Part shown: one piece after another, positions 2,890 to 60,800 of the stretch
Layout of the letters: every line of letters starts with the position of its first letter
Numbering within the stretch: the stretch's first letter is position 1
From: Sipunculus nudus
Taxonomy: Eukaryota; Annelida; Sipuncula; Golfingiida; Sipunculidae
NCBI GenBank assembly: GCA_026874595.1
Contig: CM049315.1
Location: 66,783,916 to 66,847,915, forward strand
Reading direction: 5' to 3'
DNA: 64,000 bases
The notes under the pieces: generated by a model
Databases searched by the model: none
Told to the model about the DNA's origin: nothing
What the model saw: only the letters and a program-made list of their open reading frames with translations
Position numbers and translations under genes: made by a program

Positions 2890-3060
2890 AGACGTCCACC
2901 TACAAACAGTGCGAATTGGTGACTAAGGCAGCAGGCAAGTGAAAATTCATATATAAAGACAGTTCATGATAAAATCCTGCAAATTTGGCATTCAGCCAAG
3001 TTTCCCAGAAACACAAGTCATAGGACCACCAATCATCCCGACCCCCCTCTGCCCTGTCAC
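2890..3060 (-). promoter_or_regulatory. Promoter region of BTB gene 1 with STAT-like site
   Basis: TTCTGGGAA lies at 3010-3002 on the coding strand, 113 bp before the ATG, followed by ACTTGGC. The 16-base core TTCTGGGAAACTTGGC is also in the gene 4 promoter. A TATATA stretch lies at about 2957-2950. No transcription start is visible directly. Confidence 0.55.
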
Positions 3061-4255
3061 GAAATAAGTGCATTTACATATACTTGGCGTTGGTATGGAT
3101 GACATGTGCACTAACGGATCGATATGTCTACATTTTGGTTTTAAATCACAAACTGCCTCCTACTGATAAAAAAAGACTGTAACGTCATAGTGGACAACAA
3201 AAAGCTAAGTCAGCCATCCGTGTCAAAAGCGCTCCAGGAAAGCTTGCTTTATTTATTGATGAACTGCAGAATGCTGGACCCGAGTGTCGATCCTGCCAAT
3301 CAGTCACATAGACAAGCCCTACATATATACAGCTAATAAGTTTAGTCCAATGTATGAGAATCGGAGGCTGCACTCATTCAATTAATAAAATCTCGACATC
3401 CCCGCTTTCAGCCACGGCAGCCGTTTAAAGGGGTTCGAACCAGTTTCTGTGGTCTAGACCCCATAAGTGTCCCTGATATGAGGATCTAATTGAGGTTTTC
3501 TCATAAGCAGTAAGTTGAAGAATATAGATCAAACTGACCAAGTATTTAAAATTAGGAGTACTTTTGAGGACCTCCAAAACATGTCATGATCAACAAGCAT
3601 ACGAGGTTCAAGACCCAAGAAGAAACAACAGCTGAGAAACTAATACAATTGCTGTCATTTGTCGGTCTCGGAAATAGAATAAACTAACAGACAGAGAGAC
3701 AGAGAAACCTAGAGAAACAGGAAGACAGGGGAACATGTGAAAACAGTATTTTGAATGAGCAGTGTCTGGAAGAGCAGAAACAATAACACTTTAATGTATA
3801 AATGTCGATTCTGAAACGTCGCGCACGAATAAACAGACAGACACACACACAGAACATGTTTCCTGACTTTATTTAAACCGTATGGCTTTCAGAAGCATTG
3901 CTAAATCAATGTGGAATCCAGAATTACACGTCGGACCAAAACAACAAGCAGGCAGGAAAGTTGACAACAGCAGATGAACAGATGAAATATTCTGGCCAAC
4001 AGACTTTGTGAGTAAATAACGCAGGCGCACATGAACTAAAATAATGTCCACCATTGTACTCAAGGCCTGGGCGACTACATGAACGAAGATCTGAGCTATC
4101 CTGATCAAAGCTGAGCCGTGGACTACACGGAACGCCGAGTCTGAGTTTATCACACCAACAAGCTGCGGTCGGCTTCTCAGTTACAGTCTGTTGTAACATG
4201 TTAATTACCCCGGCCGGCGTGGCGGTGTTTTCACATATAAACACACAAACACACA

Positions 4256-4256
<1 letters not shown>
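3061..4256. other. Intergenic, no gene seen
   Basis: Short ORFs only. Around 3920-4010 there is a diverged repeat (CGTCGGAC, AACAAGCAGGCAGGA, AAGTTGACA, CAGCAGATGAACAGA) that recurs near 5990-6070, so this is old interspersed repeat DNA. Confidence 0.6.

Positions 4257-4258
<2 letters not shown>

Positions 4259-4293
<35 letters not shown>
4259..4293. repeat. (TA)n microsatellite
   Basis: Uninterrupted TA run after an ACACAC stretch. Confidence 0.97.
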
Positions 4294-4297
<4 letters not shown>

Positions 4298-4484
4298 TTT
4301 TATTATTGTCAGCGTGAAACATTTAAATATATTACAATTAAGTATAAGGTTTTAGAAAATAAGGTATTCTGTTTCCAGTATATGTTTTCCAGCCTACGCT
4401 CGGGTGCACTAATCAGTCGGCAATATGGTTACTTTTGTTATGAATCAGACAATCTTTTATACAAATTTATTCTGGATTTTTTGT

Positions 4485-4597
4485 CATTGTTCAGGTTTCG
4501 GATAAATGGTCGAAATTCCGGTTCTCCGTTTTTTTTATTTGGAATGACCGATTTTTCGGATAAGTGATGTTCGGATATTCGTCGTTCTACTGTACCT
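4485..4597 (-). mobile_element. Possible pogo/Tigger-like transposon end
   Basis: The minus strand reads ACAGTAGAACGACGAATATC from about 4595, then repeated TTATCCGAAA motifs. The CAGTAGAAC..ATTATCCG style is typical of terminal repeats of pogo/Tigger Tc1-mariner elements. A similar end occurs at 61743. No transposase or partner end is evident. Confidence 0.35.
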
Positions 4598-4629
4598 GCA
4601 AGCGCTAACCTATGGTCGTTTAGTTTTTT

Positions 4630-7058: not shown

Positions 7059-7062
7059 TTAA

Positions 7063-9780: not shown

Positions 9781-9957
9781 GACATTACCACTTAACAATG
9801 ACTCTTTGTACGGATCCTACTGCGATTCATTTTGTACCATAGTTTGTGTAGGTTGTCCCTATATTAAATTTATAACGACTGTTAAAGGAATTTAAAAGCT
9901 CAAACCAATCTCTAACCCAGTTGCTGTTCTCGCATGAGGTAAATGGTCGTAAACCAC

Positions 9958-14310: not shown

Positions 14311-14361
<51 letters not shown>

Positions 14362-15220: not shown

Positions 15221-17957
15221 TCACAAAAATTGGGGAACAGCAGAAGGACACTGCATCCATTGCCTGACGATGGTGTCCGTGAAGACGGCGTCAGAGTCGT
15301 CTTCTTCCTGTTCGTCCGCATCCGCTCCATCACTTACACGTGCCACCGCCGTGCCATCCTCGTGAGACATTGATCCCTCCCTCCTTCGGTTCCTGATTTC
15401 CGTTAAGGTCTTTCGGATGTCACTTGGACTAAGTAAGCATTCATCCATGTTTTCGTCGCAGGAAACCTCATCCAAATGGTCCAGGAAGGTGGACTTCACC
15501 ATTGTAATATGTATTCTTGATGGTGGATGTTTTGATGGCACGGGCGGGATCTCTGCATAACGCTCGCTGAAGGGATTGTAGATACCCATTTTCATGTAAA
15601 TGGACTTGTTTTGTTTGAAGGACAAGTAAAAGACCCCTTCATCTTCACCAGGTAGCGCCGCCATCACCTCATGGGTATTTCTGATTGGACGGTCTTTCGG
15701 AAAAGGTTTTATCTTCCATGCGTTTTTAGGTATGTCGTAAACCAGAGTTTTTTTACCACGCTTAATGAACAGTTCCCTCTCTGTACCTAAGACATCAAAC
15801 ACTTCGTCTAGCTTTAGTTTAGCCAGGAATGCTCTCAGTGGAATATTTCCATCAGGGCATGCCAGCTCTCGTAATTGGCCTAATTGTGGTATCAAATGCC
15901 AGATGAAGAGCTTTGATGAATTCCGCACACAAATAATGTACGCCGTGCCGTCTTTCCTCCTCACAACTTTAACGTTCAAGCAGGCACCTCCAGGCTTACT
16001 CCTTCCCTCACACAGGGGCTGCCACGTTAACGTCTCCAGGTCAAAATACTGAATCCGCAGTCTCCATGTCAGCATGTTCTCACTTATACACAGAACGATA
16101 TCTTCCATAAAAACATCTGCAGAAACATCCTCCTCAAGTATCTCCTCCTTAACACAGTAAAGACTATCACTGAGACACAGGAAGTAGTATCGTTGCCCGA
16201 GATGCCCCATCCGAGACTTGGTTTCAGGATACGCCGGAGGGATCTGAATCACGGTCTTAGTTAATATATTCAATAAATTGAACCTCTCTTGTGCAGACCG
16301 AAAACCTACAAAATCTGCACCGGGTCCAGCTCCAAACAAATGCAGGGTAATGTTCCCGTACAGCTCGGTGCAGTTCTCAGGGATCTTCACCGTCAGCCAT
16401 TTCTTCTTTTCGGGTCTGTAGATCAGGTGTATACCCTCACTGTAATTACGGTAATAAATTACTTCTTCCAGTTTTTCAGTGTTGTCTGTTGCGGGCTGCC
16501 AGTGACAACCCTTTTCTGCTTTGGCAGTCTTACACTCTGCACTAGTTGTTACTGACTTCTTCAAGTAGCTTGCAGCTTCTTCAAGATCTCCTATGATGCC
16601 CTCCCTTCCCGGTTTATCTAATTCCTGCCATCTTTGTAGAAAGTCCTTCATCATGTGGTAGGTACAAAACTTACCAATCCCTTCTTTTATGAAATGCAGC
16701 AAGTGACGCAGCTGTACATTGAGTGTTTCTTTTGACTTAATGAGGGTATCATGAAACCGACTGACTGCCACTTCCTTGGCAAAGACTTCAACATCCCCCA
16801 TCAACAACTTATGGCTTAATGCCCAGGTCCAAAAACAGGTTCTCAAACTAAGTGTCTTCAGCAGAAACTCCACGCAGAGTTCCTCTAAACCTTTCATTTC
16901 AAATATTCGAGAAGCAGATATAATCTCTTCTATGTTGTCCCTCTCAATATTGAGTTTACGTTGATAGATAAAAACCAAGACCAGATTGACTGGTCGGATG
17001 GAATCGAACTTATTTGATAGGTTTACCTCTTCTTTCCGAGAACTGTCATAATTTGGGAACTTCCTCCTAAAATAAGGACTGTTGCCGGCCAGAACACATT
17101 GATGTGCAACTCTCTGTTCATTTCCAACCGTGATTCTGACATCACCGTACTCGGACATTTGACATTTCTGACACAGCTGCACCTGTTGACCTTCAAACTT
17201 TCTTGCCCTACCGATGAATGTGGGCTGGTCACTCTGTAGTCTTCTGTCCTGGAAGCAAAATCATAGTAAAGATTGTTAGCTTTCGCTAAATACAACATTT
17301 TATTTTAATAGACAGTAGTGTTTAGTCAAGAAGGATGTCCATTTAATACTTTAGCCACTGATACAGGAATTTGCAGATTTTCCGCTTTGTCATTGATACT
17401 TTAATAACAAATATATGGTGAGTATATCATTATTCTGGAACATAAACATAAAAAGTAGTAATGACATTTGTCACATGATTATATTCATATTGGCTCAAAT
17501 AAATGTACTGCAGTAATCTCATCTTATTTAAATTTAGAGTAAATTATTTATTTCATACATTAAGGTATATACTATATAAATACCCATATTAAATTAAACG
17601 TAAATTATATGTCAGATTATTTACCAAAACAATACAAGACAAAGCGAAATACAGAAATAAATCCATATCAGGTAACATATTAGATATAAAAAATCTTTTA
17701 AAGAGAATTTACGTAATTCTAATAAATATGTTTGTACTCAAAAAATCAAACTGAAGCAGCAAAACTAATCTTTATGTGTTTATACACGCGTGTAGTATTA
17801 TGTCAGTTTTAATCCAACTATGGACAATTATCTTAACTTTTGTAGGTCTCGACAGGGATTTTTTATATTTTGAAATTAACCCAAAAGGGTACAAATGGCA
17901 TACTCTATTTTTCGAAATCAGGCGTTCAAAATGGGTGAACACCTTTCATCTTACCAT
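15221..17957 (-). CDS. BTB-BACK protein, gene 2 of cluster
   Basis: The main exon is 15221-17248 (675 codons plus TGA). Its acceptor (TTGCTTCCAG) lies just before 17248. The exon opens DRRLQSDQPTFIGRARK, matching genes 1 and 4. The proposed first coding exon is only the ATG at 17957-17955, directly followed by GTAAGA. An in-frame stop lies upstream and no other ATG precedes it. That gives 676 residues: BTB about 24-135 (VAHQCVLAGNSPYF), BACK about 136-230 (FWTWALSHKLL; LLHFIKEGIGKFC), a beta-rich kelch-like region about 260-600 (LIYRPEKKKWLTV, VVRRKDGTAYIICVR, FPKDRPIR, MGIYNPFSERY) and an acidic tail (ADEQEEDDSD). The kelch diglycine pairs are absent. Predicted role: cullin-3 adaptor, substrate unknown. 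The internal GTG at 17182 is not a real start. The main exon is secure; the first exon is tentative. Confidence 0.88.
17249..17954 (-). other. Intron 1 of BTB gene 2 (proposed)
   Basis: 706 bp, AT-rich, donor GTAAGA, acceptor TTCCAG, phase 0. No repeat of note. If the true first exon lies elsewhere the acceptor still holds. Confidence 0.55.
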
Positions 17958-18200
17958 ATTTTCCTGAGCGGGAAAGCGGGAACTTCGTTCCAGTCGAATA
18001 GATTTAGCCTACGTCTGTAAAACTGAACTCCACCAGACACAGATTCACTTAGGCACCCTATGTGAGCTGGGGACGGGTGGTAAATGGAGAGAACCCGGTA
18101 GTATACAGTATGACCGCTGTTGGTGGATTGCAAAACAAACATTTCCAAACTGGCTATGGGCCAATATTCCCAGAAATACCTTTTATCCACCGTAGCACAG
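17958..18200 (-). promoter_or_regulatory. Promoter/5' UTR region of BTB gene 2 with STAT-like site
   Basis: TTCTGGGAA at 18175-18167 on the coding strand within GGTATTTCTGGGAATATTGG, about 210 bp before the proposed ATG. The adjoining ATTGG is an inverted CCAAT box. The core is nearly the same as upstream of gene 3. A 102-residue frame over this stretch has no recognisable domain and is probably UTR. Confidence 0.5.
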
Positions 18201-19391: not shown

Positions 19392-22330
19392 TTAAAAATG
19401 CTGCAAATTAGAAGCAAACTTCATGTGTCGAGGAAGGGAGTTCCATAGAGTACTGCCTGCATAAAAAGAGGTAGCCTTGAAGGCTTCAATACGCGGTTTC
19501 GGAAGGATACAGTTTTTGTTTTCGGTTAACCGCGTCGAATAATTATGAATGCCCTTCGCCATATGAAAATTCTTACATAAATATGAAGGGGCTAAATCAT
19601 TTATGCATTTATAGGTTAAAATAGATAGGAGGTACAAATATCACTGTTCAATTGTCATTAGGCCTATTTCTTTCACTAAATCTAAACTTCTTTGAGTTGG
19701 GTCGTAATTTTTTGTTATTATCCTAGCCACACGACACTGCATTCGTTGGATTGCGGCACGGAATGTGCTGGGACAGCTGCCCCATACTGTTAGACTATAA
19801 TCTATTGAGGGTTGAACAAAGGCGTGATATAAAGTGACTAAAAACTTCTGTGGTAGAAATTTGCTGAGCCAATGTAAAAGTCCAATTTTGCAACATAGCT
19901 TTTTAAAAACGGTAGAAGTGTGAGATTTCCATGTGAGATGGGCGTCAATGATCAAGCCAAGATGAGAAAATTCATCGACATTCGGGACAATATCTTTATC
20001 GATAATTATTTGTAATGAATTTGATTGTTTGCGTTGCTTGGAACTCACAAGCATAGTAGCTGATTTTTTGGCGTTTGCAATTAGTTTGTTTTTATTAAGC
20101 CATTTAGTAACTTGGTCTACAGCAGCCTGTAACTTATGTTGTGCTGATTCGCGATCGATGCCGTCTGCGTATAGCGTGATGTCGTCAGCATAAATCGGGC
20201 ATTTTGCGTTTGTTACATTATCGGGCAAGTCATTAAGATATAGTAGGAAAAGAATGGGTCCAAGTACAGTGCCTTGTGGTACACCTGTATCGATGGTTTT
20301 CACCTCAGAATTATAGTTATTGAAGCAGACAAACTGCTTTCGGTCGTATAAATAATTATAAAACCAGGTGTGCGAGTTTCCATTTACGCCATACTGTTTT
20401 AATTTACCCAATAATATATCGTGATTTAGGTAATCAAAACCTTTTTTAAGGTCGAGAAAGCATATGGAGTTTACACGTCCGCAGTTCATAACTGTCAGCC
20501 AATTATCAACTATTCTATGTAATGCAATTTGGGTAGAGTTGTTTGCAAGAAAGGCAGTTTGTTCAGGAGATATCAAGCGTTTGTGGTTTAAGTAATTAAG
20601 GAGATGACGTTTAATGTGCTTCTCTTAGATTTTAATCACATGGCTGGTGATCGAAATTGGCCGGTAATTGTTAGTATCAGAAAGTTTCCCCTTACCCTTA
20701 TAAATGGGTACCACCCTTGCACACTTCCAGTCAGGAAGAACTATTCCTGTACTGAGTGATAAGTTAAGAATATGTGTCAGCGATGGCGCTAAGATGACCG
20801 CGGCCTCTCCAAGTAAGAACCCCGGCATATTAAGGACATCAATTCCATGTTTATTCTTAAATGCGACTAGAAGTTTCACGACATCCTGTTGGCTCATTTG
20901 AGGGATTGAAAACCAAGAATCAGTAAAATCAGGTTGGTCCTGCACAACATCTTTGGTAAATGCTTTGGTTAAGGTTTTTCCAACTGAGGCAAAGAAGTCA
21001 TTCAGGTCATCCGCAGTTAGATCTGGACTATCTTGACCCCGGCTAACTGGATTGATCACGTGTTTTAAAGACTGCCAAATCTCCTTGGGAGATTTTGATG
21101 ACTGTGCCTTGTGTCTATAAAAGGAACGTTTCAGTTGACGGATCATGCAAGTGACCCGATTACGTAACCGCCTGAACTGTGCCCACAGCTGTGGATCATT
21201 ATTTGACACAGCAGATTTACGAATGCGTTCTCGGTTATATATTAGACGCTGGATATCAGGTGACATCCAGGGATTGTGTCTATTATTTCTAACTCTAAAC
21301 GTTCTAAAAGGTGCGTGTTTATTACATATGGTCAGAAATTCATCACGCCATAGATTCCAGGCTGAGATGACATCATTTACATCAGGAAGACAGTGAAATG
21401 TTAATGATGACTGAATGGACCGCTTGAAGGCAAGGGGATCAAATTTCTTAAAGGACTGAATGGACCGCTTGAAGGCAAGGGGATCAAATTTCTTAAAGGA
21501 CCTAACTCTCACAAATTTGGTTCCTTTTTGGCAACTGCCTCCTGAGAGCCGGGTAAAAATAATATAATGATCGCTAAGTGACCATGGAATAACGCCGGAT
21601 GATGAGTGAATACTGGGTGTATTTGTAAAAATCAAATCTATCGTACTGGATGAGGTTGCGGTGACTCGAGTTGGGGAGGTTATAAGTTGATGAAGGTTGT
21701 ATGATGTGGCCATATTCACCAACTCAACATTTATAGACGCTTTGGGGTTATTGAAATCAATATTAAAATCGCCTATGATCACTGTATGAACATGTTTAGC
21801 CATAGCAAGGCTAATGTTATCGAAGAGAAGTTGTAAATAACTTTTGTCAGAGTGAGGCGGTCTATATATACACCCGATCAGAGAGTTACGTCTGTTCCAT
21901 TGAATTTGGACCCAGATTATTTCTAGATGATCATTAGAAATAAAAGGACATACGATAGATTGCAAGGAACTTTGTACATAAATGGCAAACCTCCACCATG
22001 TCTAGTTCGGTCTTTTCGGTAGAGAGTATACCCCGGGATTTCGATTTCATGGGTTGCGATACTATCGTCCAACCGAGTCTCAGTGAGACATACTACATGG
22101 ACCGAACCAACCTTTAGGAGGAGCACTAATTCGTCGAACTTGGGAGGAAGACTTCTTACATTTAAGTGGATTATAGTTAGGCCATTCTTCTTTCGGATAC
22201 ACTGTAGGAGTGTTTCAATTGAGGTACCATTATCATGCGTGTTTGAGGAAGGCACGTTTTGATAATCGGGAATGAACCCGTCATTGTTGTGACCAGGTAA
22301 GTAACTCTCGTTGTAAGGGGTACTGTTCAT
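19392..22330 (-). pseudogene. LINE ORF2: endonuclease plus reverse transcriptase, broken
   Basis: The frame begins at ATG 22330, three bases after the ORF1 stop. Endonuclease motifs seen: HLNVRSL, LTETRLDD, GDFNIDF and SLSDHYI (exonuclease-endonuclease-phosphatase fold). A frameshift lies near 21965-21940, where GGG is followed by a damaged segment. Reverse transcriptase motifs: LDLKKGFDYLNHDIL, TGVPQGTVLGPILFLLY and the catalytic YADD at about 20190. The CR1-style C-terminus (STLWNSLP) ends at 19392. In-frame stops are TAA at 20627-20625 and TGA at 19643-19641. A 45-bp direct duplication at 21409-21500 repeats SFKKFDPLAFKRSIQ. If intact the protein would be near 980 residues, normal for the group. 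Confidence 0.88.
21409..21500 (-). repeat. 45-bp tandem duplication inside LINE ORF2
   Basis: Two identical 45-bp units in direct tandem, keeping frame and repeating 15 residues. Perfect identity suggests a recent event after insertion. Confidence 0.9.
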
Positions 22331-22332
22331 GT

Positions 22333-25224: not shown

Positions 25225-25274
<50 letters not shown>

Positions 25275-26864: not shown

Positions 26865-27643
26865 CGGGTTTTTTTCTCAGTTAGTGCACCCCTTGGAATT
26901 TCTTTCAGCGTACGGTTCTGACATAATGCCGAAAGCCCGTGTCAGACCGAATAACGAACCAAAAACATTAATTTATGAAAAATGGACGTCGAAAGCGAAA
27001 TTTTTAAGCACCTATCACTTCGGGAAAGCGAATAATAAAAAGTGGATCACTAGCTTAAATCCGTTTTTCTGTCACTTTCTATGCGCCCATGTCAGAATCG
27101 ATTCGCTGACTTCGGTTCACAATCAGCCAAAGACAAAAACGAACAAATACCGACACGGTGAATGAAAACCGACACAACAACGACATGACCGAATGAATAC
27201 CGAAACCATACTGCACTGAGCAAACTAAAAACGAAGTTTTTATTTCTGAAGGTTTGGGCGACTCAAAAGCGTCATTATTCCCTCGACTGAATAATATCGC
27301 TTTTTGTTTCGGGCAATTTGGCGAATGAAAACCGAGAAATCGATTGAGACATCATTGAGACCCACAATGGTATAGAGAGGGAGATATGTATTTATTTTTG
27401 CACCAAAAAAATTGCTTTTCTGCAGGGGGATTTACAACCCTTTCAATGGTAAGTACGTGGACGTTCCATCTGTCTCCTCACAAACCTGTTTCCTACCGAC
27501 AAAATAACGGAATACGTGAGAAGCAGCTTTTTGAAGCCTACTGTGAGATTCCCTTGATGGAAGAATGCCTTCTTGGCAATGTTTGGATCAATACGACGTG
27601 AAAAGCTGTCAGACGCCGATGGCAAAAGCAAGAACGAGAAGCC
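26862..27643. other. Non-coding or exon-poor stretch before the acidic repeat ORF
   Basis: TTTTCTGCAG then a 23-base stretch then GTAAGTACG at 27411-27453 could be a tiny exon. The frame of the downstream repeat ORF continues back to about 27386 but is broken by TGA at 27599-27601. No gene model is supported. Confidence 0.35.
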
Positions 27644-39915: not shown

Positions 39916-42900
39916 TCAGAAAAGATTTGGACGAATTGCAGGCCTTTGAAACCAGTCTCTTCTCATAACGTCACTCAGCCAGGGATCACGTTCAAGAAGA
40001 TGGAGAATATCCTCCTGATCCCTTCCCGACATTCCCTCAGCGTCTTCCCCTTCCAGGTTTTGTTCATTCCATCTGCTTCTGACTTTCTTCAGTATCCTTC
40101 GGATTCCACGCTGATCAAAGAAACATTCATCCATGTTGTCCTCCAAAGACGCTTCCTCAAGACGGTCCAAAAAGCGGCATTTTACAAGTGAGGTAAGTCC
40201 ATCGGTTGGCATGTAATAAGAAGGTGCCGGTGGAACATCAATGTACCGGTCTTGGAACGGACTGTAGATGCCCATTCCGAAAAATACCGATCTGATTGGT
40301 TTAAAAGACAAGTAGATGTCACCATCTCTTCCATAGTGGCTCCCTAAAATATCTGTTTCTGATATTGTGCACGGACGTTCTTTGGGGAACTTCTGTACCT
40401 CCCATGTATTTTCTTGAATCTTGTATACCAGTGCATTGTTCTTCAGCTTAACGAACAGTTGATCAGCGGTCCCGAATAAATATATATACTCCAAGTACTG
40501 GACATCATCTAGGCATTCTCTTGAGACGACGTGCGCAGCTAGACTGGCTAATTGCTTTAATTGTCCATCAGGTGTGAGATGGTACAACAGGAGTTGTAAT
40601 GGTTCCCTCACACAGACAATGTATACAGACCCATCCTTTCTGACTGAAGTCCTGACTTTCAGAGAGGCACCTCCGGGTAGAGCTTTATCCTCACACAGAA
40701 CCTCCCACTTTAATTTCTTGATATTGAGCCAATCAATGCACAACTTGCACATCTTTTTGTTAGCTGTGACGTACATACCACGCAGCCCTTCGTACCATGG
40801 AGCCTTTGTTTTGCTTGTCTTGGTTTTTGCTGTTCCTTTCTTTTCCAGGTAGACTAGTTCTCTTCCGACGTAAAGAACCCCCGAACATTCAACATGAAAT
40901 GATACACAACATTGTAATGATTCTCCCAATCCAACGTGAAAATCATTGTTCGAATAAGGAATGTCATTTATTTGTTTTGTTGAAATATTGAACAACCTTA
41001 ACCTTTCTTTGATCTTGAAGCCAACTATGTCCGCCGAAGGTCCAAGCCCAATTGAAGGGGGGTAGTCTTCATCCAAATAAATACGCTTTTTTGGTATCAC
41101 AACTTTCAACCAAATCTGCTTTTCTGGTCGATAGATTAAAAGGTTGTTCGTTATAGAGTTTAAATGGACAAAAACCTCTTCAAATCTTTCTAGTTCGGTT
41201 TCTTTACTCTCTGTATTCTTCTCCTTTGGTAGAGTCTCAATATTTTCTGCATCTTGTACTTGTGAATCTTTCTTGAACAGATCTATTAATTGCTCAAACT
41301 GATTGATGTACTTCTCTCTTTCACATTTATGTTTCTCACACCAGCTCTGTATGAATGCTTTCATTTTCTCTTTCGAGCAGAACTTCCCCAGACCTCCTGT
41401 CATGAAATGCAGGATATGAGTCGGTTTAATATTTAGTGCCTCGGTGTGGTTGATGAGGGTATCGTGAAATCGACTAACAGCTACGTTTTGTGCAATATCT
41501 TCTACTTCGCCAATGGAGAAGTCAAAGCTGATTGCCCATGTCCACAAACATGTACTCAGACACAGATTCTTCAACAAATACCGTATACACAGTTCCTCTA
41601 CACGTTTGATGCTGAACAGCCGTGCTACCTGGAGAAGTCCTTCAACTTCATCTTTTTCAATCTGGATATGTCCAGTGTACAGGAACTCCAACACAGTAAC
41701 GACTGGCCTGATGGACTGAATCTTGTCTGACATGTCAAACTCTTCTGGTCCAGGGCTCTCATCGCGTGGGGCCATGTTCCTAAAGTAAGCACTGTTGCCA
41801 GCAAGGATACACCAATGAGCAGCTACTTTGCCATTATTGGCTTTCAAAGTGACATCACAGTGCTCGGATCTTTCAAACTGTTGACGTAGCAACATCTGAA
41901 GGTCCTTCCGATTCCTTGCTCGACTGTCATGGCTTGTAAATTTCTCATGTTCTCGCCTCCTCTCCTAAAAAGAAATACAGATGTAAATAAAATGAAGCTT
42001 AATTGAAATTATTTAGGGAATACCTAATCTCTATGTTAGTAGGGGTGCACGTGTTACTAAAATATAGATTTCCAGATGCACCCTGTGGCAGCTCAGACCA
42101 GTGATGCAGTCGAGTGCACACGATCCGAGTTCCATCCCGAGTCCAGACCACTCGAGTCTAAGTCCTTGGGGTTCTAATGCAAGTCCACCTAATTCGAGTC
42201 CGAGTACAAATATTCTTGCTAAAACAAATGCAAACCATGTGCATTACCATGTGACCCCTCGAGTCCTTCCCTCCTACTACAAAAAAAAAAATGCCCCACG
42301 TCACTGAATCATACAGGTGAGGTGGTAATGGCTATTTTAACAAGTGACCCATGGGTCATGACGCTCAGCTGACTGGGAAGAGATTTGCAAAAGGAAATTT
42401 TATCATCTGAATGGTAGTATATACCCATTCAACTGAAGCATCAAACAGATTAACCAACAGGCTGAGATTGTGTCTGTATTAATATATCTAAAAAATAGAA
42501 AAAAAAATTAAAAAAAATACAGGTGGCTCTACCAGTCTGCAGAAACTAATAAAAACACTTAATGTTCAATATCCATGCAAAGAAGCATGGTGGTCTCTGG
42601 ATTAGTTGTTCAGATATTTCAGCTTTCGTATCAATTTTTCCATTATTCTGAGGGATACTTTGCAGTCCTATAGCTTGGAGGATATGGGTAACAGAGACCT
42701 AATTTCAGGTTTCCACAGACACTTTTCATGGGCCTCCTTGCATGACAAGAATGAAGATTCTAGGTCCAGTTGTTACAATTTGTACCCCGTTGACAGATAA
42801 CCACATCTTTAAAGGTCTCAAAAATAAAGAAAAAAATTGGTAAAAATTTGAAAAAAAAATAGAGGTGGCGCACCCAGTCTGCTGAAATTGATGGAACATG

Positions 42901-44942
42901 TCATGATCAATATGTATGCCAAAAATCTCATGATCAATATGCATGCCAAAAATCATGACCATCAGTGATGTAGTTAATGAGATACTGAAGTTTTTGTATG
43001 AAATTTTTCACTATTCTGGGGGGGGGGGGTACTTTGGGGCCCCATAGCTAAAAGGATATGGGTAACAGAGACCTAATTTCTGGTTTCCATGGAGACTTTT
43101 CATAGGTCTCTCAGAATGTCAAGAATGAAGATTTTAAATCCAGTCTTTACGATTTGTGCCCTGTTAACAGAGGTCCACATTTTTAAAAGTCTCAGAAATA
43201 GAGAAAAAAATCGTAAAAAATCGAAAAATACAGGTGGCGCCACCAGTCTGCAGGACCTGATGGAACACTCCATGATCAATATGTATGCCAAAAATCATGA
43301 CCATCAGTGATGTAGTTAATGAGATATTGAAGTTTTTGTATGAATTTTTTTAATATTCTGGGGGGTACTTTGGGCCCGATAGCTCACAGGATATGGGTAA
43401 CAGAGACCTAATTTCTGGTTTCCAAGGAGATTTTTCATGGACCTTTCAGAAAGTCAAGTTACAAGATTCTAGGTCCAACGGTTACGATTTGTGCCTGGTT
43501 AACGGACAGACAGACGGACAGACAGACAGACAGACAACAGACAAAGAGTGATCGCTATAGCTCAGCATGACTGAAAGTCAGCTGAGCTAAAAAATACAGG
43601 TGGCGCCACCAGAATGCAGAAACTGATGAAACACTCCATGATCAATATGTATGCCAAAAATCATGACCATCAGTGATGTAGTTAATGAGATATTGAAGTT
43701 TTTGTATGAATTTTTTTAATATTCTGGGGGGTACTTTGGGCCCGATAGCTCACAGGATATGGGTAACATAGACCTAATTTCAAGTGTTTAAGGAGACTTT
43801 TCATGGGCCTCTCAGCATGTCAAGAGAGAAGATTTTAGGTCCAGTTGTTACGATTTGTGCCATGTTAACAGATGACCACATCTTATGAGGTCTCAAAAAT
43901 AGAGAAAAAAATTTGTAAAAATAAAAAAATAAAGGTGGCGCCACCAGACTGCAGAAACTGATGAAACATTCCATGATCAATATCCATGCAAAGAATCATG
44001 GTGATCAATGCAATAGTTGTTCAGATACTGGAGCTTTTGAATCAAATTTTCCATTATTCTGGGGGGTATTTCGGAGCCCCATAGCTCAGAGGTTATGGGT
44101 AACAGAGACTTAATTTCAGGTTTCCAAAGAGACTTTTAATGGGCCTCCCGGAATTTCAAGAGAGAAGATTCTAGGTCCAGTCATTACAATTTGTGCCCTG
44201 TTAACAGATGACCACATCTCAAGAGGTCTCAAAAATAAAGAAAAAAATTCGTAAAAATCGAAAAAATATAGGTGGCGCCACCAGACTGCAGAAACTGATG
44301 AAACATTCCATGATCAATATCCATGCACAGAATCATGGTGATCAATGCAATAGTTGTTCAGATACTTGAGCTTTTGTATCAAATTTTCCATTTTTCTGGG
44401 GGGTACTTCGGAGCCCCATAGCTCAGAGGTTATGGGTAACAGAGACCTAATTTCAGGTTTCCAAGGAGATTTTTCATGGTACTCCCTGGATGTCAAGTTA
44501 GAAGATTCCAGGTCCAGTGGTTACGATTTGTGCCTGGTTAACGGACAGACAGACGGACAGACAGACAGACAGACGGACGACGGACAAAGAGTGATCGCTA
44601 TAGCTCAGATGACTTTCAGTCAGCTGAGCTAAAAATTCAATCATAATAACTTCCAGATTTTATTAATCACATGATAATGCTACACTTTTACGCAGGTAAA
44701 TGTGGAATATAAAAATGTCATCATTACACTATGACATGTATTGAGAGTCATCAGTAATCTGACAATAAAATAGTGTCACATGTTCTAAATGCTTATAAGC
44801 TCATACATTAACCGTCACCACTTGCAGCCCTGTCTGAGCAGGTACAACATATTGCAGATCTGCGGCTAATTTGATATTTAAATTCTTACATAAATAAATA
44901 AGAATTCCGTACCTCTTTTGACACATCATCCTTGGTAGACAT
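39916..44942 (-). CDS. BTB-BACK protein, gene 3 of cluster
   Basis: Coding exons are 44913-44942 (MSTKDDVSKE) and 39916-41964. The donor is GTACGG at 44912, the acceptor TTTTTAG before 41964, phase 0. The predicted protein has 692 residues. Exon 2 begins ERRREHEKF and continues SRARNRKDLQMLLRQQFERS, so the internal ATG at 41895 is probably not the start. BTB about 34-145 (CDVTL; AAHWCILAGNSAYF), BACK about 146-245 (CLWTWAISFDFS; HFMTGGLGKFC), a Lys/Glu-rich linker (about 250-275) and a beta-rich kelch-like region (LIYRPEKQIWLKV, VRKDGSVYIVCVREP, NTWEVQKFPKERP, MGIYSPFQDRY, NMDECFFDQRGIR). The C-terminus is a short helix-like tail. Predicted cullin-3 adaptor. Its intron is inflated by a repeat array. 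Confidence 0.9.
41965..44912 (-). other. Intron 1 of BTB gene 3
   Basis: 2.9 kb with donor GTACGG and acceptor TTTTTAG. Most of it is the repeat array at 42480-44640. Confidence 0.8.
42480..44640 (+). repeat. Six-unit tandem array, 335-370 bp units, with GGTGGCGCCACC core
   Basis: Unit landmarks CAGGTGGCGCCACCAGTCTG (or decayed) fall at about 42523, 42861, 43232, 43598, 43936 and 44271. Each unit also has ATGATCAATATGTATGCCAA, ATATGGGTAACAGAGACCTA and TTTGTGCC.TGTTAAC. Two units (ending about 43590 and 44635) finish in (GACA)n, then GAGTGATCGCTATAGCTCAG and CAGCTGAGCTAAAAA. Confidence 0.9.
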
Positions 44943-45270
44943 TGTTCAAATTTAAATCAGATTGGCTAAGGTTTGGCTATACATGTGACTTCCATGAAAA
45001 CCGTTTTAACATATGCATTTTCTCAGCCCATGTACCAGTCGGCTGGTAACTGCAAAAGGTTTGTGCCTGACAACGTCAATATTCCCGACTCTTGGATCTC
45101 GTCCAATCTTCCCAGAAATACGTTGGTAGTGTATTCACTATACTCAGTGGGTACAACGTATTGAGCCGCTCCTGGTGGAGTTATTTGCAGAGAGCTTTAC
45201 GACAGACTACAAGCCTGTAATAAACGAAGTAGGCCATATAAACATATAAATATAAAAGGTCTTATTATTC
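44943..45270 (-). promoter_or_regulatory. Promoter of BTB gene 3, proximal module
   Basis: TTCTGGGAA at 45117-45109 on the coding strand, 167 bp before the ATG, within CGTATTTCTGGGAAGATTGG. An inverted CCAAT box adjoins. The module (about 45040-45270) is repeated at 47270-47510 and 48110-48340. Confidence 0.6.
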
Positions 45271-47269
45271 ATGAATATGTAGTTTGTCAGTAGCGGGCAT
45301 CGTCATTTTTTAAATAAATATACCACATAAAAACATGTGCTAACATCCAATAACTATTATTAGTAAGAAAGCGTAGTCCTTGTGTATAGGAACGCACCGA
45401 AACACATAAAAGCAAGGATCCACAAACTGAAATGTTTAAAATGGACCAAACGTTTTATTGTATTTGTGTCCCGGCTATTCGTGTTCAAGGGGACTCATGT
45501 CTTATGTTTATTAGTATTTCCTCACATCGTAAATATTTGATGATATATCTGTAGACAGAAGGTCTAGGCTATTGCATTAAGATGTTTACCATAAGACGGT
45601 GATATATTTCTATTAAAACTCCAGAATAATACCGGTAATAATAACATATGGTGATATTCCATACATATAAACTGTGATTTCGGTACATCATTAATTATTA
45701 TTATCAATCATCTTTCGGTAGGGTAATCTGTCTCCATAAATTTTTAGGCGCGGATCAACGAGGTCGGGGTCGAGACTCGCCCCGCTCCCGACCAATTTTT
45801 TTTCCAGGAGACCTGTAAATTATGTGACAAAAATTTGCCTCAGAATACTCTTACATTTACTATTTACCATAAATATTCTCCTATATATTCCTATAGACGG
45901 ACTTTTTTCAGGTATACAACTTCGTTTAATCAAGATTCAATTGTATACCCAAAATTACATCTGAATTTTCTAAATTTTTCAAGTTATTAGTATAAAAATA
46001 AACTCAGTACTCAAATTTTGCCGAACTTTGACCATATTGCAAATGTACACAATTTATAAACCTTTTGATTTAATAAAAAAATTAAGATCTAAATGGAACT
46101 TCATATATTATTTTCCTGCAGAACGGGAGATAAAGTGATCAGCTTTGTATGTCTACGAGTCTGTCTATTTTCAATATTCAGTAATTGTGAATGAACTTTG
46201 AATAGGTCTATTGCAAGTGTGTACATTTTATAAAATAAGAAATATATATTTTTAATGATATATTATAAAAAATAGATCTAATTGAACAAATATGTAAACT
46301 GCTGAACTCTCAACAGTTATTAAAAAGCCAACCAATGATCATTCATGGTCATAGTATATATCTTATATTCACAAACCGCTCGCATGCTTCAGTTTTAACA
46401 TAATTAAACACATGGTCAGGTCACAACATCTTATTCGCAACAATTTCTTGCTCATCAATACAAATCAATCATATAAACCAACCATGACCTATGTATTACC
46501 TCTTCCTCTCAGACGTAATCTCCATTTGATATTATTTTAGATTTTTACCTTCAAGGTCAAATTCAGCTGAGTATACAGTGACCCATTGGTCCCTTTTTTA
46601 TGTTAGGCAATAATTACAAATAACATACCAGATACAAAAATCCTGAAAGAAAGATCATCAAAATATCGCTGTACTACTTAAAGCCTTATAATAGTTTATA
46701 GTGCATGTATGTGATGATCCTGCATAAACATAAATATTTTAACATTTTTGCTAATTATCTGATTTGTTAAAATAAAAATTAATGCTAAAAAATAAAAACT
46801 TGGTTAAAATTCAGAGGAAAAATTGAAGGATAGTTATTTGTGAGTAATTTCCTCGTTATACGTCTTCTTAGATGAAAAGTTTTATTCTATTTATTAATGT
46901 TTTAGATTTTAAATTGAAATTGCACATTTGGGTACTATATTGGCCCGATTTGTTCACCAGTTACATCTGTTTGGGTCCGTTGGGTTCTGTTTTATGTCCG
47001 TTGTGGTCCGTTTGGGTCCGTTAGGGTAATTAGTCAGACCCTACATTTATAATATATAGTATTTTAATTTATATACAGATCATATATGTACATTTATATA
47101 TATGGTCTGGGGCCAGACATCCTCTGAAAAAAATTCTGGATCAGCGTTTGATTTGTATTAATATGACTTATCTGACGGATTAAAACAGAGAGGGAAATGT
47201 AGTGCTACAGACAGTTTCAGAATAATAGGTTAAAAACATACACTGCTTACATAAACCCATGAATAAATA
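45271..47269. other. Intergenic, AT-rich
   Basis: No gene seen. Around 46968-47030 there are several GGGTCCGTT.GGGT repeats. Confidence 0.5.
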
Positions 47270-47510
47270 ATAGCCTGTCGTAGGTACAAAGAGATCTGCG
47301 CTTGACTATGTCAACGTCCCTAAAACTTGGCACGTGTCCAATCTTGACAGAAATACGTCCTCAGCAAAATCACGACGCTGTATGTGGACATATTAACGTT
47401 ACTGAGCCGAACGTGGTGATCTGCTTAGCAGAGAGGTATACAACAGACCACGCAAGCATGTAGTCAGTCAAGCGGGAAATGTAAAAAATCGTATCACATG
47501 GATAAGCAGG
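47270..47510 (-). promoter_or_regulatory. Second copy of the gene 3 promoter module
   Basis: Same order of blocks as 45040-45270 (GTCAACGT, GTCCAATCTT, CAGAAATACG, ACTGAGC, GCAGAGAG, ACAGACCACGCAAGC). The STAT-like 9-mer is damaged here (TTCTGTCAA on the coding strand). No coding exon follows, so it is a relic or an alternative upstream promoter. Confidence 0.5.
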
Positions 47511-48109
47511 GCTTTCTATTATTTTGAAAAACTAGATGAAAAAGCATGCATGCAAGTATATACCACAAAAAGACGAAACCCTTCTGGCGTTATTTGCGTA
47601 AAAGAAAACACTGGACACATTAAATCAATTTTTATACCATACAACATTTTGTGACAAATTATGTTTCCTGTGTATGGTAAAGAATACCTTACGTAATTAC
47701 ATTCATTGATATTTTATGTCGTATTCAGTTTATGACAGATCTGTCATAACATTTTTGGAATCTCCCATGTCCTTGGGGTTATGGTGATATGCCAAAACGT
47801 GCTGCTAGAAATCAAAACTGAAATCTGACCAAATTTTAATGTCTCAAAACTGAACAATCTCTGAATTTAATAGCTGATCCTTTCTGTTAATTAAAACATA
47901 ATTAAATTATATCTTTTAAAATGTATAGGCAATCTGTCCTCATAAAACTCGCTTTTTATAAACGATATTCCCTTGCATATGTTTATATGACTAATATGGC
48001 AAAATAATGCTTAGAAGGATATGTGAATATTATACTGCTAAGCACGCTTTCACTCAAATTAAACATATATATATAGGCCTACGCATTAAAAACATATACA
48101 ACAACGCAT

Positions 48110-48340
48110 CTATACCAGCCTTTAGGTAATCGAAAAAAAGGTCCGCGGTTGACAGTAGCAGTTGTCCTCAAATTTGGCTCTAGTCCAATCTCCCCAGAAA
48201 TACGCCGGTAGAGAATTGACTGCGCGTAATGATGACAAAAACTACTGAGCTATACGGGGTGATGTTATTTGCCGAGAGTTGTTCAAGACCACGCAAGCGT
48301 ATAATCAGCCGTGCAAGATATGCAAATAATCATATCACAC
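48110..48340 (-). promoter_or_regulatory. Third copy of the gene 3 promoter module
   Basis: Same block order. The 9-mer reads TTCTGGGGA on the coding strand (one change). It shares ACCACGCAAGC with the second copy. It also contains ATGCAAAT (48320-48327), a perfect POU octamer. Confidence 0.5.
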
Positions 48341-56630: not shown

Positions 56631-56636
56631 TTTATT
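56631..56636 (-). terminator. Candidate polyadenylation signal of BTB gene 4
   Basis: AATAAA on the minus strand, about 327 bp after the stop codon. Confidence 0.35.
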
Positions 56637-56962
56637 TAAAAAAAACTAAAGTACACACTATTCTGCATCGATGCCCGGCTTTAGTGACAATTGTGCAGAA
56701 AAAAATGAAATTGATGACAGAAAGATTCTCCATAATATTTGAAATTAAATTACAGAACTCTGGCAGAATTACAAATAAAAGTGGAAGATATATGATAATT
56801 TCAGAAAATAACGCTGAATGTCTCAAGCTACATGATTACTTGCTTAAATTGTCTGAATATTAGAAAGCGTCTTTAAAACAAAATGATATAACATGACCTC
56901 TCTAAGTACATAAACAAAAACACATGAAGCCGTTCTGTTGCGAGGCTTCTGTCTCGAGCGCC

Positions 56963-59900
56963 TCAGTAGGAGTCGTATTCGTCATCCACCAGGGACTGGT
57001 GTATCAGCTGCCTCATCGCGATGTCCTGCAACACGGCAGCAGCAACCTTCTTCCTCTCCTCCTCTTCCTCTGGATCTTCTCCATCGCTGTTCCACATCAT
57101 TTCGTCAGCTTCATCCAAACTCTCCCCGTGGGACATGGCATCCAACGCCTCCTCCCTCCATCTACTTCTGACCGTCTTCAGGATCTTCAGTATCTCAGCT
57201 GATTCTAACAAACCCTTCTCAATGTTGGTCTCACAGGTGGCTTCTCCTAAGCGATCCAAGAAGCAGCGCCTTACCAGACCAATACGAATATTGATTGGTT
57301 GATAGCATGATGGAACTGTAGGCACCTCAGTCAGACACTCTTTGAAAGGGTTGTATATTCCAGCCTCCATATATGAAGAGCGGATCTTCTTGTAGAGCAA
57401 GTAGATGTTGCCTTCATTCTCACTATTGAGCGACATCTTTACCTCTCGTGTTGATCTGATGGGACGGTCCTTTGGAAACTGCTTCACTTCCCATGCATTC
57501 TTTTGTATCTTGTACACCAGGGCATTTCTGCCTAGTTTGATAAGCAGTTGATCATCTGTGCCCAGGATGTCAAAAGGATCATTGGTCTTAAGATCAGCCA
57601 GCAGTGATCTCAGAGGAATGTTAGCAGCGGGACTTGCCAACCGCTGTAACTCTCCACTAGATGGCGTCAGATGCCAGATGAGAATCTTCGATGGCTCTCT
57701 CATACAAATAATGTATCCCGCTCCATCCTTCCTGATTACGACTCTCACTTTTAGACAAAAACCTCCTTGCTCACTCTCGCTCACACAGACAGGCTCCCAT
57801 TTGCGTGTTTCCATGTTGTACCGTTCAAATATGAACTTCCACGTCTTCTTGCTGTCGGCACAATAGGCGCCTCGCATTCTCTCATACCATACGCCCGTCT
57901 TTTCTTGATCTTTCTTGGACTTTGCCGAGTCGTTCTTTTCAGTTGACACCTCCTCCTTAAACGAGTACAGGTTACCATCGTTGAAGGATAACACTTGAGA
58001 TTTGTTTGTTCGTCCAGATCCATATTCTCTGTCCTCGGTGTCCATATGTATGTACTTCGTTTCCTTGGAATCCATGTTGAGTAGCCTGAACTCACGGTAA
58101 CCGTATGGAATGCAGGCGAATTCTCCTAATGATCCAATGCCATACAAAGAATGGTTTCCATCGCCATGGACTGTTCCTGAAGCAAGATGACGTGGGATTC
58201 CTACAGTAAACCAAGTCTTCTTCTGCGGCCGGTATATCAACTGTACGCCTTGGTTCCCATTCTCATAAAAAAGCACCTCTTCTACGTGGTTACCATTCGT
58301 TTCCTTGTCATCCTTCTCATCCCCGTCAGCACCCGAGGCCTGGATATCTTCCGTTGACAAACCAGCTGCTTCCTTCAGCTCCAGGAGTTTGGGGCCCCTG
58401 CCTGGATTATCTTTCTCACACCACTGCTTTAAAAAGTCCTCCAGCTTTTGCTCAGAACAAAACTTAGCAAGTCCTTGTTTCAGGAAATGCAGCAGATGAG
58501 TTGCCCGCATTTCCATTGCCTCATTGCTTTTGATGAGAGTATCATAGAAACGGCTTAGGGCAACATCCTTGGACACCTCCTCAATTTCCCTTATTGAGAG
58601 GTCAACACTGACGGCCCAGGTCCACAAGCACGTGGACACGCTGAGGTTCTTCAGAAGAAAGTGGACGCACAACTCTTCTAAATCCTTCATCTTGAATAAC
58701 TGAGCTACCTGGAAAAGTCCCTCGACGTCTGACTTTTCGATCTGGATCTCGCCATGGTAGATGAATTCCAGCACTGATGTGACCGGCTGGATGGTTTCCA
58801 GCTGGTTAGAGAGGTCGACCTCTTTCGGTCCCGATGTACCATCGGTGGAAAACATCTTGCGGATGTAGGGGCTGATGCCCGCCATAACACAATGATGTGC
58901 AAGAGCCTTGTCATCACCAACCTTAAGGGATAGGTCACAGTACTCAGACCGGTCGTATTGCTGACACAGCAACACCTGCAGACCCTTTCTTTTCCTAGCT
59001 CTACCAACAAATGATGCTGATTGTTCATTCTTTCTTCTTGCCTGAAAAAGAATGAAAAAAATGACAGAATCCTGACGTTTCATTGGATGATAACATAACT
59101 GCTTTGATTAACGTAAGGAGAACCAAATTCAATTATTTACAAATAAAAGGCTCTGACTGCTTCGGTGGAGGAGTAATGTATAAACCAGTATACCTTTGAA
59201 CATTTTCGCATGTAAAGATATTTTGAGAATAATTTGACTACAGCCATGCAAGGCTGGAGGGAGATCATTGTCGGTCCTCACTCCACCCGCCTTTTTATAA
59301 GTCATTAGGGCTGACATGATCATCATTAAACCAAGAAAGTTCTCTTAGGAAACCCAAAGTTAGGTCACAGTGACTTATCATTTGACTTGACGGATTTCAA
59401 AGGGTCCTATTCTGATATCTGAGGTCTATTAACTACAGATAATCCCTTGAACCTTTTATATAGACCAGAAAATGCCAGTCCTATGGCACACAGGCATCTT
59501 TTCTTGTCTCCACGTGCTGATAGCATGTGAGGGCCTGCATGCCTACATTATCCAAACACAAACAACGAGGACATTTGGCGGTAAGTCAGACGATCCAGAG
59601 TTTTGCAACGGGCGTTTTGCAACTGGTGACCTTCAAACCTCTGGACATATGCTACCAATCACCTTAGAATACGTTTTCTCCCCGTTTACCAGCATTGCTG
59701 TGTTAATAACAGTTTATATATAATCATGCACATACATCCGTCATGAGAACTTTTTTTAACAGGAATTATAAAGAGTCCATTATCATATATGAAGAGTAAG
59801 TCAGAAAACACATTCTTTCTACAGAAAAAAGTAAGACAACAGCTTGCTTTAAGCACTTAAAAAATAAACCCTTTTAAACCGCACTTTTGGAAATATTTTG

Positions 59901-60615
59901 ACTGAGTAAAATATTTGAGAAATGATGCCTCATTTCATCCCAGTCATCATAATGTATAAAAGAAATGGCCGTAACGCTAATATTCATGCAAACAATCCAT
60001 TATTATTATACGGAAACAAGTTCACGCACACATACAAACCCTGAATGTCATTTTACATCTATTTTTCATGTTAACGATAAAAAAAGGAGAAATTGATCTG
60101 ATACTGACAGCTCAATATTCAAATTTAGTTATCATTACTTAAACACATACTAACCGGAAGTCTCCAAAAGCCACCAAAACAATTAAATGACAATGTATGG
60201 GTGCAATAAACTAAAAAAAATTAAACAATAACTCATTATTCCGTCTGTTTTTATTTGTTCAATCCTTTTACATACACACATGCGCACACACCTGGGTGCA
60301 TGCTTCTGTACTAATGTTCAGCGCACTGTCATGGCCCATGGACAGTCAGTTAAAAAAAGGAGGGCGATGGAACCCGATGAGGAGCTGGTCCTCAAATTGA
60401 TATTTTTTCACTAACACTGAAGAAAAGCAGATGGGCCCAGGGGTTTATAAACCCAGACATGTTTTTTGTGGCCATTCTTAATTAGTACGGGGAAAATGGC
60501 GGCAATTTATGCTTAAAACCATGTAAATCCTGTTCAAGCTGTCCTGAAATATCACCAGTCTGGTATTAAGGAAGCTTACCTCTCTGAGCACCTGGTGCTG
60601 GACAAATGGGAACAT
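56963..60615 (-). CDS. BTB-BACK protein, gene 4 of cluster
   Basis: Coding exons are 60580-60615 (MFPFVQHQVLRE, ATG in a good CCACCATG context) and 56963-59041. The donor is GTAAGC at 60579, the acceptor TTTTTCAG before 59041, phase 0. The protein has 704 residues. The ATG at 59083 lies in the intron. Order: pre-BTB ARRKNEQSASFVGRARK, BTB about 36-147 (CDLSLKVGDD; AHHCVMAGISPYI), BACK about 148-250 (CLWTWAVSVDLS; HFLKQGLAKFC), linker, then a beta-rich kelch-like region about 280-640 (LIYRPQKKTWFTV, VVIRKDGAGYIICMREP, LIWHLTP, NAWEVKQFPKDRPIR, AGIYNPFKE). A strongly acidic EDPEEEEERKK segment precedes the C-terminal helix. Kelch diglycines are missing. Expected role: cullin-3 ligase adaptor, substrate unknown. 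The frame is intact. Confidence 0.92.
59042..60579 (-). other. Intron 1 of BTB gene 4
   Basis: 1.5 kb, donor GTAAGC, acceptor TTTTTCAG, phase 0. No repeat of note seen. Confidence 0.8.
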
Positions 60616-60800
60616 GGTGGCGTCTCCGGAGAGTGTAATTTTGTGTCGACCGAGGTACCCGCTGAAGGACTGTCAAAATTGTCTCGCCCACTCAGCCGGG
60701 GATGTGGGTGCTGAATGCTTGGTAACGACTAAAATGAAGCCTGGCTGGAAGCCAAGTTTCCCAGAATCTTCCCATTCGTGCTTCTGCGCAGTGCAGCAAA
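60616..60800 (-). promoter_or_regulatory. Promoter region of BTB gene 4 with STAT-like site
   Basis: TTCTGGGAA at 60766-60758 on the coding strand, 143 bp before the ATG, followed by ACTTGGC exactly as in gene 1. GC-richer than its surroundings. No clear TATA box. Confidence 0.55.

Follow-up and report, generated by a model that had tools for sequence, protein, structure and literature searches.

Why should the BTB-BACK genes clustered in a short stretch of the Sipunculus nudus genome carry the same STAT-like 9-mer ahead of their start codons? Is this 9-mer the unit that was retained, and which factors might read it? We addressed these questions in a window of 64,000 nucleotides (i.e. the whole stretch analysed, from contig CM049315.1) and in the complete genome.

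Pattern searches

The genome (1.43 Gb) was scanned with each pattern, the reversed pattern being used as control. A 16-base form was derived from the four genes of the window, and an 18-base core was fixed after the 16-base scan; five of the nine genes discussed below (g5, g6, C15a, C15b and C16a) had no part in defining the 16-base pattern. The list of close-family genes was obtained with one query protein, 63 of 103 candidates being scored. A matrix was built from the nine sites, which themselves score 30.5-40.1 bits.

The BTB-BACK genes of the window

The following exons were delineated, the first coding exons being putative:

1..1928, minus strand, main exon of gene 1; open frame running off the window, with an in-frame tandem repeat
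15221..17248, minus strand, main exon of gene 2; BTB domain, acceptor read by eye
39916..41964, minus strand, main exon of gene 3; BTB domain, upper coordinate taken from the open frame, acceptor unassigned
56963..59041, minus strand, main exon of gene 4; BTB, BACK and a C-terminal half modelled as beta-rich with low confidence, acceptor placed by eye
2812..2889, minus strand, putative first coding exon of gene 1; ATG to gtaaat donor, read by eye
17955..17957, minus strand, putative first coding exon of gene 2; ATG immediately ahead of gtaaga donor
44913..44942, minus strand, putative first coding exon of gene 3; MSTKDDVSKE, one among five candidates
60580..60615, minus strand, putative first coding exon of gene 4; MFPFVQHQVLRE

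The gene 4 peptide MFPFVQHQVLRE is close to those of C15a (MFPPFHAQVLRE) and g6 (MFPFFHQGLQRE), and first-exon peptides are alike in g4, C15a, C15b and g6, and roughly so in C16a. A BTB domain was detected in all ten aligned members, Pfam BACK in four of them and Kelch_FKB95 in six (both at E up to 0.01, the latter below its curated cut-off in the member shown). The family profile can be aligned with KLHL11 and KBTBD4 across their BTB-BACK region. In a low-confidence model of gene 4 (pLDDT 57.7), the C-terminal half is beta-rich and the best PDB matches are KBTBD2 and KBTBD4, with low TM. The family products are probable ubiquitin-ligase adaptors of BTB-BACK(-Kelch-like) type.

A composite element ahead of the four genes

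As the original prediction stated, TTCTGGGAA lies on the minus strand ahead of all four BTB-BACK start codons (3002-3010, 18167-18175, 45109-45117 and 60758-60766), and the putative ATG follows the end of the 9-mer by 113, 210, 167 and 143 bp in genes 1, 2, 3 and 4, respectively. The window holds a fifth copy that had been overlooked (37675-37683, plus strand), i.e. five copies for 0.64 expected; none of 100 dinucleotide shuffles reached five, the largest count being 4. Enrichment was not clear for the looser TTCNNNGAA, with 31 copies for 23.5 expected and 31 reached in 9 of 100 shuffles.

The TTGG announced 3' of the 9-mer is present in all five copies, but the unit proved longer, a 25-mer, the CCA of a palindrome having been missed: it stands exactly 7 bp 3' of TTGG in each of the four copies linked to a gene and is absent from the fifth. 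This fifth copy, whose TTGG is one base off, was taken as a chance occurrence and discarded as a composite site. The pattern TTCTGGGAA-N2-TTGG(C)-N5-(G)CCA fits all four genes of the window. It associates a STAT/GAS-like half, TTCTGGGAA, with an NFI-like palindrome, YTGGC-N5-GCCA, exactly 2 bp away (about 25 bp in total):

2985..3010, minus strand, composite site of gene 1; TTCTGGGAA AC TTGGC TGAAT GCCAA
18150..18175, minus strand, composite site of gene 2; TTCTGGGAA TA TTGGC CCATA GCCAG
45092..45117, minus strand, composite site of gene 3; TTCTGGGAA GA TTGGA CGAGA TCCAA, differing from the 18-base core at two positions
60741..60766, minus strand, composite site of gene 4; TTCTGGGAA AC TTGGC TTCCA GCCAG
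47327..47352, minus strand, decayed extra copy upstream of gene 3; three mismatches, within a duplicated promoter block
48174..48199, minus strand, decayed extra copy upstream of gene 3; two mismatches, within a duplicated promoter block

Genome-wide concentration at the close family

Nine close-family genes, located on three chromosome-sized contigs, carry the element with at most two mismatches (g1 to g6, C15a, C15b and C16a). It is in sense orientation relative to the gene in 9/9 cases, and the putative ATG stands 121-218 bp after its first base in the eight genes with an inferable first exon. The TGG in the middle of the 9-mer is invariant in the nine sites, partly by construction as the searches tolerated only 0-2 mismatches. 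The right half deviates in g3 (TTGGA-N5-TCCAA) and g6 (TTGGG-N5-GCCAA), and the left half of g6 is CTCTGGGAA instead of TTCTGGGAA, a departure from TTCNNNGAA. Gene 5 seems frame-broken, yet its site is perfect.

The exact 16-base form gave 10 matches genome-wide (reversed control, 0), seven of which lie upstream and in sense of close-family genes. The scan with the extended core came out in favour of the original prediction: within one mismatch, 7 of 11 matches (control, 0) precede close-family genes in the sense orientation, on three contigs, so that the proposed sharing of a regulatory element is well supported. The JAK-STAT pathway invoked for this co-regulation is only a possible explanation. 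At up to two mismatches, 88 matches were found (control, 7), which adds g3 and g6 and brings the count to nine of the 12 close-family genes. Changing the spacer, with one mismatch allowed, gave eight matches at 3 bp and five at 1 bp, none of them at the family. The shorter core TTCTGGGAANATTGG was too weak alone to be retained as the unit (26 matches for 10 in the reversed control, 5/26 at the close family). The 25-mer, rather than the 9-mer or this shorter core, is the real unit. Seven of the 26 TTCTGGGAANATTGG matches lie together in a C3 array (65.9-66.3 Mb), five copies of which (L004-L008) are near-identical over at least 1.6 kb and have no match to three window BTB proteins; the 15-mer is therefore unrelated there.

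The family is not the exclusive location of such sequences. At up to two mismatches, 75 of the 88 matches lie away from it, against seven for the whole reversed control, which indicates that weaker composite versions are common in the genome. Four of the 11 best matches (on C2, C3, C6 and C7) are outside the close family; for those on C2, C3 and C7, nothing matching the window BTB proteins was found within about 10 kb either side. The C2 match is possibly coding, as judged by eye. Conversely, no promoter copy was found within about 1.5 kb upstream of the main exons in three of the 12 close-family genes (C16:25783119, 25810401 and 25833733), and for two of these three the nearest two-mismatch matches are tandem repeats. 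Among 11 distant BTB loci (10 on C11 and one on C5), each scored over about 1.5 kb of upstream sequence, the highest matrix score was 5.4 bits. The distant C11 cluster has AAATGTNTTTCTGGGAAA in common (three matches in two loci, C11/C5 loci), which was rejected as a comparable element since the promoters of L055 and L057 align over longer stretches and are devoid of TTGG-N7-CCA.

Conservation of the element against its flanks

Among the nine sites, pairwise identity is 94 % in the core (609/648), a value due in part to the way the sites were found, i.e. by similarity to the core, 32 % in the spacers (80/252), a value near chance, and 26 % both in the 100 bp upstream and in the 95 bp downstream. 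The nine sites are related by descent and hence not independent, so that Poisson values, which also include the four defining genes, overstate significance and were not used as probabilities.

As the genes are tandemly arrayed paralogues, with a block of about 200 bp triplicated near gene 3, the copies might be recent duplicates or functionless hitchhiking sequence; we rejected this reading, which appears scarcely credible, because the flanks of genes 1, 2, 3 and 4 give no alignment above shuffles and the 94 % identity in the core of the nine sites drops to 26 % in their flanks. An origin from a dispersed repeat or minisatellite is also highly improbable. It would account for the C16 tandem repeats, about 45 bp each, that resemble the element, the best copies of which (L039, L047 and L053) score 24-31 bits against 30-40 for promoter sites, and for the part of the 88 two-mismatch matches that, by eye, resemble repeat families; however, no repeat is common to the flanks of genes 1-4, and the C16 arrays inspected sit antisense at the 3' ends of genes or gene fragments. 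The arrays at 25778747, 25836865 and 25864417 (two mismatches) were for this reason excluded from the count of promoter sites. Two of these three also lie upstream, in sense, of the family genes 25783119 and 25833733, where they may have a regulatory role.

The element is near-unchanged while its surroundings have changed beyond recognition, and it is thus probably a retained control switch shared by the nine genes. We consider it very likely an ancestral proximal promoter element, of about 25 bp, of this BTB-BACK(-Kelch-like) family, kept by purifying selection.

Candidate readers of the element

Of the nine sites, 8/9 match TTCNNNGAA and the same number fit TTCYNRGAA, a second STAT consensus. 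TTCNNNGAA is the GAS consensus printed in PMC3564941. A STAT gene is present in the genome (C12:15276158), and literature matches for TTCTGGGAA with promoter include several STAT papers. An activated STAT dimer could bind TTCTGGGAA and induce the cluster on immune challenge, TTGG being secondary. We hold this reading only tentatively, as the middle triplet, free in the GAS consensus, is fixed as TGG in 9/9 sites, g6 breaks the consensus with CTCTGGGAA, generic TTCNNNGAA is without clear enrichment in the window, and the palindrome rigidly coupled 2 bp away is left unexplained. It is nevertheless compatible with a nuclear factor I (NFI) reading, in which a dimer of NFI type would be the main reader with a partner on the left 9-mer. 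This is quite possible, if somewhat short of probable. The NFI consensus TTGGCNNNNNGCCAA (PMC3610271) resembles the right half, with TGG-N7-CCA in 9/9 sites (a count largely imposed, as regards the five genes outside the window, by the search pattern, which contained the dyad), YTGGC-N5-GCCA in 7/9 and a perfect 15-bp site in g1 and g5. The genome encodes an NFI gene (C4:71788614), and both decayed copies upstream of gene 3 retain TTGGA-N5-GCCAA, their 9-mer being mutated. On the other hand, the full TTGGC-N5-GCCAA is found in just 2/9 sites, g3 and g6 deviate, and the palindrome, unlike an NFI site, is rigidly coupled to TTCTGGGAA.

The fixed orientation and 2-bp spacer, with both halves near-invariant, GAS-like middle included, are also consistent with a single long-footprint factor, e.g. 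a multi-zinc-finger protein, reading all 25 bp. We regard this as possible though on the unlikely side, since a right half with dyad symmetry points to a dimer and ZNF143, the known multi-finger candidate tested, gave 0/9. The reverse strand of the element, TTCCCAGAA, recalls the ZNF143/Staf SBS (TTCCCA, two bases, ATGC), of which SBS1 and SBS2 contain ATGC as printed in PMC7154149; ATGC is missing in 9/9 element sites and CCCANNATGC occurs in none, hence this reading was rejected. The exact ZNF143 site string had no literature match, and the shorter string was absent among the matches listed. For the NF-Y CCAAT box the agreement is partial, ATTGG being present in 5/9 sites and the other four having CTTGG, ACTGG or GTTGG. 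Finally, the element itself could be transcribed, and given an upstream transcription start its position would suit a 5' UTR hairpin (TTGGC loop GCCAA) acting post-transcriptionally. The inner pair is kept in 8/9 sites, C-G being replaced by A-T in g3; but it is broken in g6, the outer pair is broken in 2/9, and the best-conserved part, the 9-mer, lies outside the stem, making an RNA hairpin very unlikely.

Significance of the element

The ancestral promoter element that we favour would have been spread with its genes by tandem and inter-contig duplication and preserved by purifying selection, the remaining promoter sequence diverging to chance similarity. The most likely mechanism would be its reading by one rigid protein-DNA complex, formed by an NFI dimer together with a STAT-like or BCL6-like factor or, alternatively, by one multi-finger protein; the genes, which probably encode ubiquitin-ligase adaptors, would thereby share a single control. 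Clusters of paralogous genes are known to carry composite regulatory elements, and the present one resembles these by its fixed-spacing motif pair retained at paralogous promoters; no STAT-NFI element of this form was found in the literature among the matches listed. More speculatively, and with rather low confidence, this undescribed GAS-like and NFI-like element with its rigid 2-bp spacer may define a regulon of fast-duplicating BTB-BACK adaptors on three contigs, which one cooperative complex (STAT or BCL6-like with NFI, or a novel zinc-finger protein) would switch on together as a battery, e.g. in immunity.

The promoter logic of expanded families in non-model animals is mostly unexplored. 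Here paralogy serves as a phylogenetic footprint: the main exons encode proteins 42-55 % identical to gene 4, the promoters are randomised and 25 bp survive. The extra sites of gene 3, g6 and the C16 subclade offer natural mutants, and so short and directly testable an element provides a route to the factor controlling a KLHL-like expansion.

Make-up of the composite element in the window

The original prediction placed a STAT-type 9-mer before the start codons of all four BTB-BACK genes (genes 1-4), and TTCTGGGAA was indeed found at the four places, on the minus strand. A fifth copy at 37675-37683 (+) has TTGG one base further on, without CCA, and is probably due to chance. By chance, 0.64 copies of the 9-mer would be expected per window, and five were not reached in any of 100 shuffles; the generic TTCNNNGAA showed no clear enrichment in the window (31 vs 23.5 expected, 9/100 shuffles being as high). 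Alignment of the four gene-linked copies revealed a composite element, i.e. TTCTGGGAA, two free bases, TTGG and then (G)CCA at a fixed distance, with C directly after TTGG in three of the four copies. Its right half shares the dyad symmetry of a nuclear factor I (NFI) site, and the gene 1 element holds the perfect 15-bp consensus.

Composite element at the four genes of the window
Gene 1 site, minus strand: TTCTGGGAA AC TTGGC TGAAT GCCAA
Gene 2 site, minus strand: TTCTGGGAA TA TTGGC CCATA GCCAG
Gene 3 site, minus strand: TTCTGGGAA GA TTGGA CGAGA TCCAA
Gene 4 site, minus strand: TTCTGGGAA AC TTGGC TTCCA GCCAG

Other features of the window
519-1299, minus strand: in-frame tandem repeat in the gene 1 main exon (open frame of 884 codons)
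19641-22827, minus strand: open frames resembling, by eye, a LINE-type retrotransposon
27379-27682, plus strand (opposite to the genes): short relic resembling the C-terminal part of BTB-BACK proteins
27644-28945, plus strand: long acidic repetitive open frame with DDDVDMTVKPD-type repeats, likely a minisatellite
44.0-44.6 kb: repeats reminiscent of molluscs

Gene family and genome-wide distribution

The gene 4 protein was searched against the genome; 63 of the 103 candidates were scored, giving 67 matches. What we take as the close family comprises 12 putative genes among these scored candidates: six on contig C10 (genes 1-6), two on C15 and four on C16. The search also retrieved a more remote BTB set, mainly on C11, and three loci with fragments on C16. 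Gene 1 appears split in the family listing due to its in-frame repeat, and gene 5 in frame-broken pieces.

The assembly (1.43 Gb, the window being C10:66783916-66847915) was scanned with the patterns and their reversed controls; match counts are lower bounds and all comparisons lie within one genome. The shorter core TTCTGGGAANATTGG was weakly enriched (26 matches vs 10 for the control, 5/26 at the family). The 16-base form TTCTGGGAANNTTGGN7CCA gave 10 exact matches vs 0, seven of them lying upstream of close-family genes in sense orientation: genes 1-5, C15a (29403238) and C16a (25858534). Concentration at these genes, implied by the proposed co-regulation, was upheld with the 18-base core of fixed positions: one mismatch yielded 11 matches vs 0, of which seven lie at the family (genes 1, 2, 4 and 5, C15a, C15b (29400411) and C16a).

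With two mismatches, at least 88 matches were obtained vs 7 for the control; gene 3 was recovered, as was a site 3.8 kb upstream of the gene 6 main exon, so that 9 of the 12 close-family genes carry the element. The family accounts for thirteen matches, namely its nine promoter sites, a decayed gene 3 copy and three C16 tandem repeats, and at least 75 lie away from it. No element was found within ~1.5 kb upstream of the main exons of C16:25783119, 25810401 and 25833733; for 25783119 and 25833733, the nearest two-mismatch match is in each case a tandem repeat at the 3' end of an adjoining gene fragment.

Repeats of ~45 bp resembling the composite occur on C16, where they lie antisense at the 3' ends of family genes or gene fragments (extracted loci L026:5964-6180, L053:728-800, L039:4657-4710 and L047:3500-3600). 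Among the distant C11 BTB genes, AAATGTNTTTCTGGGAAA is present without the NFI-like half (C11:75285206, 75362928, 75409524 and 75678572; L055:3185, L057:3134), these genes accounting for 4/6 of its genome matches (control 1).

Spacing and position

Changing the spacer of the 18-base core to 3 bp or 1 bp gave 8 and 5 one-mismatch matches, respectively (reversed controls 0), none at the family: the excess there is specific to the 2-bp spacer. First coding exons were predicted in eight genes (gene 1, by eye, genes 2, 3, 4 and 6, C15a, C15b and C16a), several of which gave more than one candidate, chosen by likeness and donor. The predicted ATGs lie 121-218 bp after the element's first base, and the predicted peptides are alike in several genes (MFPFVQHQVLRE, MFPPFHAQVLRE, MFSPFHPEVQIE, MFPFFHQGLQRE). 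For gene 6, the possible first exon MFPFFHQGLQRE lies 205 bp downstream of the site, within the 451-base neighbourhood; for gene 5, a first coding exon was sought and none was found.

Encoded proteins

All 10 aligned members have a BTB domain, and family proteins appear to carry a BACK-like region, together with a C-terminal half predicted to be beta-rich; six of the 10 have weak Kelch_FKB95 matches. KBTBD2, KBTBD4 and KLHL22 were among the best fold matches of a low-confidence structure model (pLDDT 57.7), with low TM scores. From the protein families matched, we infer that the proteins may be Cul3 adaptors.

Candidate factors

The GAS consensus is matched by eight of the nine family sites, as a STAT-type site would predict, but the middle TGG is invariant, which argues for a stricter reading of the left half than that of a generic STAT site. 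The NFI-type YTGGC-N5-GCCA occurs in 7/9 sites and the full NFI consensus in 2/9; CCAAT is present in five and the ZNF143-type CCCANNATGC in none of the nine. Considered as an RNA stem, the inner pair is kept in 8/9 sites and the outer pair in 7/9. The genome holds both a STAT gene and an NFI gene, and STAT is a possible reader of the element. The NFI consensus is given in PMC3610271, the GAS consensus in PMC3564941 and the ZNF143 site in PMC7154149 (see also PMC6977252); our literature searches, to which this statement is confined, gave no pointer to a composite of this form.

Conservation and natural variants

The gene 3 promoter block is triplicated upstream (window 45092-48199; upstream-flank z 10.6-18.2). 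The 9-mer is intact in the copy nearest the exon; in both outer copies the left half is damaged (TTCTGGGGA; TTCTGTCAA), with TTGGA-N5-GCCAA left intact. These blocks are possible alternative promoters. Gene 5 (C10:66847910-66849939; L042, L045, L051) has several frames and an internal stop with its upstream site intact, and could be a young pseudogene or a gene with extra introns.

Across the nine sites, pairwise identity reaches 609/648 (94%) at the 18 core positions, partly by construction since the sites were found via similarity to the core. For the seven positions of the spacers it is 80/252 (32%), and for the 100 bp upstream and the 95 bp downstream alike 26%. Local alignment of the 200-bp flanks of genes 1, 2, 3 and 4 gave none above shuffles (z -1.7 to 1.9). 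Neither the concentration at the family nor, for the four defining genes, the contrast with the immediate flanks arises by construction. We regard the element with confidence as a putative shared composite promoter element, and from this contrast and concentration we read it as an ancestral promoter element of the family that would be under purifying selection.
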